From contig JAGAFD010000008.1 of the NCBI GenBank assembly GCA_017612805.1, positions 1 through 41,412 on the forward strand: 41,412 bases of DNA, written 5' to 3'. Shown here piece by piece: positions 26,046 through 41,412 of the stretch. A program made the position numbers and the translations under genes. The notes under the pieces were generated by a model. That model ran no database searches. It was not told where the DNA came from and was given only the letters and a program-made list of their open reading frames with translations. This DNA comes from Bacilli bacterium (lineage in GTDB: Bacteria > Bacillota_I > Bacilli_A > RF39 > UBA660). How positions within the stretch are numbered: position 1 is the stretch's first letter; the number at the start of each line of letters is the position of its first letter.

Positions 26046-26081
26046 AAAGGAAATTAAACAAAAAACGCTAATATAATAGTA
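26046..26081 (+). promoter_or_regulatory. Sigma-H-like promoter element, copy 1
   Basis: AAAGGAAAT (26046-26054) fits the sigma-H -35 (RnAGGAwww), and TAAT (26069-26072) lies 17 bases after AGGA, the spacing of Bacillus spoVG (AGGA-17-GAAT). CGCTAATATAATAGTAGG (26066-26083) is identical to the element before comEA. A sigma-A reading (GGAAAT-17-TATAAT) is also possible. Confidence 0.5.
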
Positions 26082-26111
26082 GGGAGTATATGTAAAGTAA
26101 ATGGAGATTAT

Positions 26112-26140
26112 TTTACTTTTAAAGTTTTTTTTACTATAAT
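26112..26140 (+). promoter_or_regulatory. Second, sigma-A-type promoter of the ABC exporter
   Basis: TTTACT (26112-26117) and TATAAT (26135-26140) are separated by 17 bases, close to the ATPase ribosome site. The -35 overlaps an AT-rich hairpin (26094-26101 with 26112-26119) that may end or slow transcripts from the upstream promoter. Confidence 0.55.
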
Positions 26141-26161: not shown

Positions 26162-27061
26162 ATGGAAACAATTGTAAAATGTGAAAACGTAAATAAAAAA
26201 ATTGGCAGTAAGCAAATTTTAAAAGATGTTTCTTTTGAAGTTAATAGCGGTGATATCCTAGCTTTTATTGGACCAAATGGTGCTGGTAAAACAACTACTA
26301 TTAAATTAATGCTTGGGCTACAAAAAATAACTAGTGGTAATATTTATATTAATGGTTATGATATTAAGAAAAACTTTGTAAAAGCAATTAGTAAAGTTGG
26401 AGCAATAGTTGAAAATCCAGATTCATATATGTATTTATCTGGATATGATAACTTAAAGATGGCTCAAAACCTATATGGCAGAAAAGACAAAGCGGAATTA
26501 GAAGCCATTATTAAAAAGATTGGTTTAGAAAATCGTATTCATGATAAAGTAAGTAAGTATTCTTTAGGGATGCGTCAAAGATTGGGAATTGGTCTTGCAT
26601 TACTTAATCATCCTAATTTATTAATTTTAGATGAACCAACTAATGGATTAGATCCAGAAGGAATTAGAGATTTGAGAAACTTACTTAAAAGTTTAGCTAA
26701 AGAAGGAATGGCAATCTTTGTATCAAGCCATAACTTAGCAGAACTTGAATCATTTTGTAATAAAGTCGTTATTATTCAAAATGGGGTTATTATTGATAGT
26801 GCTAAAACCAAAGATTTAAAACATGATGTTAGTGATGCTGGTTCTATTTATACGATTGTTGTTGATAGCAATAAGAAGTTAGGTAAAAAATATGAACTTG
26901 TTGATGAAGATAAAGTTATTGTTAAAGGTAATAAAGAAAATGTAGCTAAAGTAGTTAGTGAACTAGTTGTTTTAGGTAAAAAGATTTATTTAGTTACTGA
27001 ACAAGAATTAAGTTTGGAAGAAGCATTCTTAAAGAAGACAGGAGGTAATAAAATTGATTAG
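26162..27061 (+). CDS. ABC transporter ATPase (export type)
   Basis: This cytoplasmic ATPase of 299 residues has Walker A GPNGAGKT at 37-44, signature YSLGMRQR, Walker [14 protein letters not shown] and the switch His in [11 protein letters not shown]. It resembles the ATPases of CcmA/BcrA-type ABC-2 exporters used for antibiotics, peptides or lipids. The start has GGTGAGGAG upstream. It overlaps the permease gene by 8 bases. Substrate unknown. Confidence 0.93.
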
Positions 27062-28514
27062 ATTAATTGGTGCTGAATTTAAAAAAGTATTTAGTAAAAA
27101 AGCCATTTATATTATGTTAATTATTGCCCTTGGCTTTGGTATTTTAACTAACTTAATTTATAAATATGCTGATAAATTAGATTTTATTTATGATAATCGT
27201 TATCAAAGTAAAGAAGAACGTGATGATTTAATTAAATATAGCAAAACCTTAAATTTAAAGAAACCAGAAGAATTAGATGAATATATTTATAATCAAACAG
27301 AAATTTATTTTTATGATTTTTGTATTGATAATGAAGAATGGCGTTGTAATATTTTAACTAGTGATTATTATGAATTAGTTTATAACTATATGAATAGTTT
27401 ATATAATCCTAAAGCTGATTTAAATAAAGAAGAAACTAAAGCGGCATTAGATAAAGCAGTTAAAGAGTTAAAAGAAAATGATGTCTTTGGTATTTATAAA
27501 ATCAAAAAAGCAGCTTTACAAAAAGAATTAGATTCATCAATTGTAACCAGTGATGCAACTGTTGGTAAAAAAGATAAAGAATTCTTAGAAGCAAGAATTA
27601 TTGATCAAACTAATGAAATATTAAAATATGATTTATTACTTGAACATAAGATTTCGGCTGATCGTAAAGATACTAATCGTTATAGTCAAGTAGAAAGCTA
27701 TATAATGGCGAAAACTAATAATGAAACAATGGATCTATCTGATAAGTTAAGTAAAGAACAAAAACAAGAATATCGTAATAATAAAGAAATAATTAGTTTA
27801 AATAAATATTTGATTGATCATGACCTTGATGATAGCCAACCTACGGTTGCTGCTAATTTAAAATATTTCTTTGGTGATTTTTCATTCTTTATTGTTTTAT
27901 TTGTAATTATTATTAGTGGGGGAATAATGGCTGATGAGTATCATAAAGGTACTATTAAGCAATTATTAATTAAACCATATACAAGAAGTCAAATACTATC
28001 TAGTAAACTTTTAACGGTATTATTATTAATTCCAATCTTTGCTTTAATGGTATTTGCAATTTACTTTATATTAACTTGTTTATTTACTGGCTTTAAAGGT
28101 ATCTTTGATGCAATTCCAGTATATGATTATGTTAAAGATCAAGTGGTAATTTATAATGTATTTAATTATAACTTAATGATGTTTGTTGCTCGTGTACCAT
28201 ATTTTGTAATTGTAAGTTTAATTTCACTTGCAGTTAGTACGATTACTGGTTCAACAGCCCTTTCAATTGTTATGCCACTTGCCTTAGTATTCTTTAGTAA
28301 TATCATTAATATGGCTATTACTAACTTCCAATTTAAATGGTTAAGATGGTTTGTAACATATATTTGGAATTTAGAAAATTATATTTTCGTTCGTAATTAT
28401 GATGGTGTATTGAACTCATTAAGATTTAATATTATCTTTATCATTATTTATATTTTAGTGATTGCAATATTACCATATATCTTCTTTAATCGTAAAGATA
28501 TTAAAAATGTGTAA
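27054..28514 (+). CDS. ABC-2-type permease
   Basis: This 486-residue partner of the preceding ATPase has one membrane helix near residues 15-35 (AIYIMLIIALGFGILTNLI), a large hydrophilic extracellular domain (about 40-265), then five or so helices from about 275 to the end. The start is a TTG (27054), with AGGAGG placed well, giving [16 protein letters not shown], a typical ABC-2 opening. The large external domain resembles bacitracin/lantibiotic-type exporters. Substrate unknown. Confidence 0.88.
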   Translation: MIRLIGAEFKKVFSKKAIYIMLIIALGFGILTNLIYKYADKLDFIYDNRYQSKEERDDLIKYSKTLNLKKPEELDEYIYNQTEIYFYDFCIDNEEWRCNILTSDYYELVYNYMNSLYNPKADLNKEETKAALDKAVKELKENDVFGIYKIKKAALQKELDSSIVTSDATVGKKDKEFLEARIIDQTNEILKYDLLLEHKISADRKDTNRYSQVESYIMAKTNNETMDLSDKLSKEQKQEYRNNKEIISLNKYLIDHDLDDSQPTVAANLKYFFGDFSFFIVLFVIIISGGIMADEYHKGTIKQLLIKPYTRSQILSSKLLTVLLLIPIFALMVFAIYFILTCLFTGFKGIFDAIPVYDYVKDQVVIYNVFNYNLMMFVARVPYFVIVSLISLAVSTITGSTALSIVMPLALVFFSNIINMAITNFQFKWLRWFVTYIWNLENYIFVRNYDGVLNSLRFNIIFIIIYILVIAILPYIFFNRKDIKNV

Positions 28515-40129: not shown

Positions 40130-40138
40130 AATGAAAAA

Positions 40139-40174
40139 AAAGGAAATCATTCGTTTTTCGCTAATATAATAGTA
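40139..40174 (+). promoter_or_regulatory. Sigma-H-like promoter element, copy 2, before comEA
   Basis: AAAGGAAAT (40139-40147) and TAAT (40162-40165), 17 bases after AGGA, repeat the arrangement at 26046. CGCTAATATAATAGTAGG (40159-40176) is shared exactly. Its position 10-15 bases before the comEA ribosome site and start supports a real promoter, possibly read by a sigma-H/ComX-type factor controlling competence. Confidence 0.6.
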
Positions 40175-40184
40175 GGAGGGAAAA

Positions 40185-40868
40185 ATGAAAAACTATTTAT
40201 TTAAAAAGTATTATCCATTCATCATTATTATTTTGTTAGTAATTAGTAATGTTTTTACTTATTGTTATTTTAGTAATAATAAGGAAACTAATATTGTGGA
40301 AGAAAAGCCAATTAATGAGGTTGCTTTAATTGAAGATACTAATTTAATAACGGTTGATATTAAGGGTGAGATTAAAAAGCCAGGAATTTATGAGTTAGCC
40401 TTAGGTAGTAATGTAGCAGATTTAGTAAAGTTAGCTGGAGGAATTAAAAAAACGGGAACTACTGCTAATCTTAATTTAGCCAGAAAACTTACTGATCAAA
40501 GTGTCATTGTAATTAAAAATAAAAATCAAAAAAATACTAAAACCGTTGAAGAACCATGTGTTTGTAAAGATATTGAAATAAGCAATTGTAATAATGAATC
40601 AAGCATAATTGAAGTGGTTAAATCCGATAAGTTGGAAGGGGAGGCAAAACCAACTATTACGGAAGCAAAAACAAGTAATAAAGTAAGTATTAATAATGCT
40701 TCTAAAGAAAGTTTGATGACCTTATCCGGAATTGGTGAAGCTAAAGCGGTAGCAATCATTAATTATCGTAATGAGTATGGTAACTTTACTAAATTGGAAG
40801 ATCTAACTAAAGTAAGCGGCATTAGTGAAGCAATTTTTAATAAAATTAAAGACAATATTGAATTATAA
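40185..40868 (+). CDS. comEA: Competence DNA receptor ComEA
   Basis: This 227-residue membrane-anchored DNA-binding protein of the transformation machinery has a membrane helix near residues 10-30, an SLBB domain (about 60-112, VDIKGEIKKPGIYEL), a linker of low complexity with three cysteines, and a C-terminal double helix-hairpin-helix (about 163-227, VSINNASKESLMTLSGIGEAKA). All parts of Firmicute ComEA are present. It overlaps comEC. The start has an AGGAGGG site. Confidence 0.93.
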   Translation: MKNYLFKKYYPFIIIILLVISNVFTYCYFSNNKETNIVEEKPINEVALIEDTNLITVDIKGEIKKPGIYELALGSNVADLVKLAGGIKKTGTTANLNLARKLTDQSVIVIKNKNQKNTKTVEEPCVCKDIEISNCNNESSIIEVVKSDKLEGEAKPTITEAKTSNKVSINNASKESLMTLSGIGEAKAVAIINYRNEYGNFTKLEDLTKVSGISEAIFNKIKDNIEL

Positions 40869-41412
40869 TTGGTTTATTTATTTATTATTATTTATTTTAT
40901 TAATTAGACCAATTTATTATTTATTTAATTATCAAAAATATTACCCGTTACCTAAAGATAATAAAGTTAAAATCATTGTTAAAAGCTATAAGATTAATGG
41001 TAATAAATTAACTATTAATGGTAAGTACATTTATTATCTTAAAGATTTAGATGAATTAACTAATATTAATATTGGTTATGGTTATCAAGTAACGGGAATG
41101 GGTAGTTATCAATATTATCAAGATAATAAGCTTCCCAATAATTTTAATAATCGTTACTATCAAAATTTATTAGGAAATCATTATTATTTTATATTTGATA
41201 ATATTAAAGCTATAGAAACTAAAAATGTTTTTTATCAAATTAAAAATAAGGTTACTGCTCATTTAAAAAGTTATGATAATTATGATTATTATTTAGCTCT
41301 TTTAATGGGTGATAAAAGTTATTTAGATAGTGATATCGAAGAACGATATCAAAGTAATGGGGTTGCTCATTTACTAGCGATATCGGGCTTACATTTATCT
41401 TTGTTTATTTTT
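40858..41412 (+). CDS. comEC: DNA-uptake channel protein ComEC, 5' part
   Basis: The reading frame stays open from the end of comEA to the window edge. It shows a membrane helix at the start (WFIYLLLFILLI), an OB-fold-like domain (KIIVKSYKINGNKLTING...YQVTGMG), and the competence-domain hallmark VAHLLAISGLHLSLFIF at the edge. The start is unclear: TTG 40858 overlaps comEA by 11 bases, and GTG 40825 is also in frame. No stop or frameshift is seen. The channel and hydrolase-like parts lie outside the window. Confidence 0.88.
   Translation, partial: MNYNWFIYLLLFILLIRPIYYLFNYQKYYPLPKDNKVKIIVKSYKINGNKLTINGKYIYYLKDLDELTNINIGYGYQVTGMGSYQYYQDNKLPNNFNNRYYQNLLGNHYYFIFDNIKAIETKNVFYQIKNKVTAHLKSYDNYDYYLALLMGDKSYLDSDIEERYQSNGVAHLLAISGLHLSLFIF

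Follow-up and report, generated by a model that had tools for sequence, protein, structure and literature searches.

Sigma-H, a stress and sporulation factor, is encoded in the spore former Bacillus subtilis between rlmB and secE-nusG and reads promoters with an RNAGGAWWW -35 and a GAAT -10 element, one of them in the dnaG-sigA operon, while the com genes of this organism are driven by ComK and not directly by sigma-H. In Listeria, sigma-H drives both the dnaG-rpoD operon and comEABC directly, from AAAGGATTT-type -35 elements at a spacing of N11-12, and the published -35 consensus is (A/G)(A/C)AGG(A/G)WWW (PMC4754846). The com genes of L. sakei are also switched on by sigma-H (PMC3364868), and the regulon of pneumococcal ComX holds radC, bacteriocins and a gene resembling those of recombination-promoting nucleases (PMC6560143).

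The window analysed here is a stretch of 41,412 nucleotides on contig C8 of the genome of an uncultured Bacilli bacterium (G000; 1.05 Mb, 10 contigs, 94% complete). We found the pattern AAAGGAAAT-N11-CGCTAATATAATAG twice in it, both times on the plus strand, at 26046-26079 and 40139-40172 (Table 1). The first site reads AAAGGAAATTAAACAAAAAACGCTAATATAATAG, the second AAAGGAAATCATTCGTTTTTCGCTAATATAATAG, and each is followed by TAGG. In agreement with the sequence-only reading, which had paired these two places, the variable region is exactly 11 bases long and AGGA-17-TAAT is present in both; 100 dinucleotide-preserving shuffles gave a mean of 0.00 matches per window versus 2 in the real sequence. 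A position matrix scan of the whole window revealed no third site above background. The site at 40139 lies 12 bp upstream of the comEA start codon, and comEC is followed on the contig by a YhcG/DUF1016 nuclease gene (PF06250; ORFs 826-2874 and 2887-3777 of L163).

Table 1. Positions of the two sites and of the genes and signals around them in the window.
Feature	Position	Strand	Remark
-35 element AAAGGAAAT of second site	26046..26054	+	
-10 block CGCTAATATAATAG of second site	26066..26079	+	missing before orthologous exporter in G001
ATGTAA start-stop pair behind GGGAG ribosome-binding-like stretch	26090..26095	+	from sequence
Sigma-A-like promoter TTTACT-17-TATAAT, between site and exporter gene	26112..26140	+	10/12; consensus match only
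ABC ATPase of ABC-2 type exporter	26162..27061	+	PF00005 2e-30
ABC-2 type membrane subunit	27054..28514	+	PF12679 4e-18
-35 element AAAGGAAAT of comEA promoter	40139..40147	+	fits sigma-H -35 consensus in PMC4754846
-10 block CGCTAATATAATAG of comEA promoter	40159..40172	+	TAAT where sigma-H sites have GAAT
comEA (SLBB + helix-hairpin-helix DNA receptor)	40185..40868	+	PF12836 HHH_3 4e-19, PF10531 SLBB 5e-13
comEC, start only; continues past window	40825..41412	+	

Both window sites and nearly all other sites identified match the sigma-H -35 consensus (A/G)(A/C)AGG(A/G)WWW with AAAGGAAAT, and the spacer, 11 in the window sites and 11 or 12 in G000 and the same-genus genome G001, is within the 11-12 of sigma-H. 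The -10 consensus (A/G)(A/G)(A/C)GAA(A/T) is not matched: G000 and G001 carry CG(A/C)TAAT, with TAAT 2 of 7 positions off (C for R, T for G), and the -10 block also holds the sigma-A sequence TATAAT. Compared with the Listeria monocytogenes regulon (PMC4754846), the -35 type, the 11-12 spacer, the dnaG-rpoD and comEA-comEC core and the distance of the sites from the start, some tens of bases, are alike, whereas the Listeria -10 is RRMGAAW and here CG(A/C)TAAT is followed by ATAATAG.

A search of the whole G000 genome at ≤3 mismatches yielded 6 sites versus 0 for the reversed control. A looser pattern added 2 more, one upstream of dnaG and one upstream of a YhcG nuclease gene, giving at least 8 (control 3 matches), and both kinds recur in G001. 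Mismatch searches used fixed spacing and may thus have passed over weak sites whose spacers differ; gene names are Pfam matches or readings of the sequence. Each G000 site shares its strand with the gene or operon that begins shortly downstream, usually with the start codon 12-23 bp further on. They precede comEA-comEC with the YhcG/DUF1016 gene behind it, the ABC-2 exporter at 26162, a small gene with radC and further downstream genes, a gene for an MvaI/BcnI-family restriction endonuclease, a secreted protein gene (393 aa), a C39-peptidase ABC exporter, another YhcG nuclease gene (spacer 12) and dnaG-sigA, where TATATA is found without TATAAT. In G001, the sole sister species compared, sites are located before comEA (CGATAATATAATAG, spacer 12), radC, dnaG-sigA, the C39 exporter, the secreted-protein gene and two YhcG genes. 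The regulon of several genes proposed from the window is therefore supported and is rich in competence and DNA-processing genes, but at ≤3 mismatches no sites were seen before comG, dprA, recA or ssb, where the proposal had advised looking for them. The Listeria regulon also has comG and coiA, in place of which radC, the YhcG nucleases, the restriction enzyme and the C39 exporter are found here. Two YhcG/DUF1016 nucleases of the putative competence regulon (L163:2887-3777 and L164:3943-4833) correspond to the PADLOC candidate phage defence PDC-S02.

By its sequence, the site at 26046 is a genuine copy of the element. There is no gene directly behind it; the start-stop pair found instead may belong to a leader or be what is left of a lost gene. 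Upstream of the ABC-2 exporter gene of G001 (C81:1489) the DNA aligns to that of the window but lacks the site. Because of the start-stop pair, the intervening sigma-A-like promoter and the missing G001 site, control of this exporter is the weakest claim of the sequence-only reading: it is the least supported member of the putative regulon, and its control by the 26046 site is doubtful. It may receive read-through from the site, and its own sigma-A promoter probably serves it. A terminator- or riboswitch-like leader between site and exporter was considered and rejected, as the fold does not surpass those of shuffled sequences (z 0.41 and -1.05), and no terminator-like match was found there. 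Of the claim that an exporter belongs to the regulon, the part naming this ABC-2 exporter is thus in doubt, and the conserved exporter member is a different one, the C39-peptidase ABC exporter.

The two sites in a single window, one of them before an exporter without a conserved site, could suggest a repeat in the DNA or a similarity by chance, without any regulator in common. This has next to no probability in our view: matches are absent from shuffles and reversed controls, fixed ends enclose variable spacers, and other species and genera have orthologous sites with genome-matched -10 variants, a conservation at orthologous genes that already refutes it. In most genera examined the dnaG-sigA site keeps its -35 element and spacing, and the -10 varies between GAAT, GTAT, TAAT and CAAT. 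It reads CGATAAT in G000, G001, G012 and G013, AAGTAAT in G008, CTATAAT in G025, CAGTAAT in G030, TGGCAAT in G021, GTCGTAT in G002, G007, G011 and G026, GTTGTAT in G004, G017, G029 and G032, ACAGTAT in G003, GTAGAAT in G016 and GTGGAAT in G019. In the other families of the class that we inspected, no such site was apparent ahead of dnaG. Sites before comEA were seen in about seven genera, and about a dozen genera possessing SigH showed no clear site there. Genomes with an odd -10 have the same one at comEA and dnaG (GGCAAT in G021, GTAAT in G008), the trace expected of one trans-acting factor with a genome-specific taste. As related genera carry GAAT (G016, G026, L110), GTAT or TAAT at the same promoters, the promoter of G000 and G001 is best regarded as a diverged orthologous one and not as a strict-consensus one. 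In G026, 14 sites are listed (reversed control 0), mostly AAAGGAAAT-N11-GTCGAATAATA with the classical GAAT, a form that meets the published sigma-H consensus in full. They precede comEA-comEC, a C39 exporter, comK (upstream of recF-gyrB), ruvB, dnaG, a KilA-N protein and several PD-(D/E)XK/Rpn nuclease-like genes, of which only L235 passes the Pfam PDDEXK_2 cut-off and the rest were called by eye.

Orthologues of SigH are present in most genera of the family, at 57-147 bits with TIGR02859, under its strict cut-off of 294.8. The gene order mrnC-rlmB-sigH-secE-nusG is shared by the four loci read in detail (G001, G016, G027 and G006), and the best PDB match of the G016 protein is a sigma-H factor (4e-24). 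The sigH or comX homologue that the sequence-only reading had called for is thus encoded in most genera, including the same-genus G001, but was not found in the readable G000 assembly, from which rlmB and nusG are missing too; nor was the sigH neighbourhood found at the G000 contig ends, the first 4 kb of C2 being read as N. From the joint absence of rlmB, sigH and nusG we infer that G000 does encode SigH, and since NusG is nearly universal, this segment has most likely just gone unread.

In total, six sigma genes are readable in G000, by sequence and neighbours those of SigA, SigE, SigF, SigG and SigK and of a 601-aa SigA-like factor. The latter (L012:577-2379; G000 C10:103888) has a long N-terminal extension, and its gene follows a Tad-like pilus operon and a pilin-like gene. 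No other readable sigma gene of G000 is unassigned, which makes it a candidate for a lineage-specific factor other than SigH that reads the sites. We consider this very unlikely, as its region 4 retains the SigA recognition helix VTRERIRQIEAKA, which reads TTGACA-type -35s, and as sites are present in many genera whose common extra factor is SigH. In G001 a 754-aa protein with weak matches to sigma regions 2 and 4 (L046; C24:4700-6313) is encoded directly behind a site-bearing YhcG gene; the corresponding place in G000 has no counterpart. Sporulation genes kept in G000 (L017 and L018; C9 and C7) comprise SpoIIGA-SigE, SigG, SigF and SigK genes as well as SpoVAC/AD/AE-like, GerE-like and SpoIIIAH-like genes, and with its 1.05 Mb genome the organism is apparently a spore former.

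More serious is the possibility of a sigma-A promoter at which an activator, such as ComK or another competence activator, binds AAAGGAAAT instead of a -35 hexamer. Nearly all sites of the genus contain TATAAT, with GGAAAT at 17-bp spacing, and nearly every genus of the family, like G000 itself, has a ComK gene. Yet the dnaG site departs from TATAAT, other genera show GTAT or GAAT without it, and both the fixed spacing of 11-12 and the AGGA-17-xAAT geometry are what sigma-H promoters have. ComK boxes are AAAA-N5-TTTT pairs, and no such pairs were apparent by eye at a fixed position; in G026 comK itself bears a site, which would put ComK downstream. On balance we regard this explanation as unlikely. 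As for comK itself, the Spo0A core box TGTCGAA/TTCGACA occurs in 11 of 26 comK upstream regions (shuffles expect 0.3) and in 0 of 22 of comEA, suggesting that comK may be under Spo0A control; the 26 regions are that of G000 (L261:1416-1500) and those of 25 other genera. A Spo0A box as the element shared by the sites was rejected: TGTCGAA is not kept in G000, since A-tracts precede CG as often as T-tracts, although the G026 sites read TTTTGTCGAATA.

The reading we favour with considerable confidence is that RNA polymerase carrying the SigH orthologue of the lineage uses the 34-36 bp element as a promoter, with AAAGGAAAT as -35 and CG(A/C)TAATATAATAG as -10 block at the usual sigma-H spacing of 11-12, TAAT replacing GAAT, and with SigH encoded in the unread part of G000. 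Active SigH would then have dnaG-sigA transcribed together with the DNA uptake genes comEA-comEC, with the DNA processing genes (radC, the YhcG PD-(D/E)XK nucleases and the MvaI/BcnI-type restriction enzyme) and with the C39-peptidase ABC exporter and secreted protein genes. The computation shows the sites with their genes and conservation and, in relatives, the SigH gene family with its syntenic position; that SigH reads the sites, and when it does so, we infer. The sigma-H-like promoter of the earlier proposal holds up well, given the exact sigma-H -35 and spacing, the SigH orthologues in the family and the core of dnaG-sigA and comEA-comEC, both site-bearing, as in Listeria. A factor dedicated to competence, as also proposed, seems not to be at work, because dnaG-sigA is a target as well: targets confined to competence in the manner of ComX are not what we found, the same site type preceding dnaG-sigA in most genera examined. 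The ComX box TMCGAATA has no known AGGA -35, and ComX is not known to drive dnaG-sigA. Unlike the factor considered here, ComX of Streptococcus pneumoniae is dedicated to competence, but it is alike in having comEA, radC and a recombination-promoting-nuclease-like gene under a SigH-like factor and in a site wider than its 8-bp core, with a T-rich stretch upstream (PMC6560143); the extra members found here (radC, nucleases, restriction enzyme, C39 exporter) recall this regulon. With B. subtilis sigma-H the lineage shares the RNAGGAWWW -35, the dnaG-sigA promoter and the gene place at rlmB/secE-nusG, in contrast to the GAAT -10 and the ComK-driven com genes of that species. Most likely, then, the mode of control is a familiar one, which here has a changed recognition sequence and has taken in unusual nuclease genes.

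As a tentative extension, on the doubtful side, the -10 specificity of SigH may have drifted with its targets from GAAT to GTAT, TAAT and CAAT, partly via the region 2.4 residue that corresponds to position 100 of B. subtilis SigH. Genera with G as first -10 base all have Ser, Thr or Asn at this residue (14 of 14), compared with 3 of 9 among those with T or C (Fisher p 0.0008). We take this association only as a hint, since genera are not independent samples and since G001 itself combines Thr with TAAT. In the same extension, the competence regulon may have gained PD-(D/E)XK nuclease families, which would couple uptake with recombination promoted by nucleases or with the breakdown of phage DNA entering the cell.

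Our literature search found no papers on competence in these uncultured Bacilli. As far as we found, this is the first evidence that an uncultured gut and rumen Bacilli family with 1 Mb genomes may run a sigma-H-driven competence program beside its sporulation genes. In the family, SigH proteins and their matched promoters form a natural series in which a -10 element has changed, and the putative regulon would connect poorly understood PD-(D/E)XK nucleases (YhcG, Rpn-like) with DNA uptake, much as the pneumococcal ComX regulon includes a nuclease-like gene.
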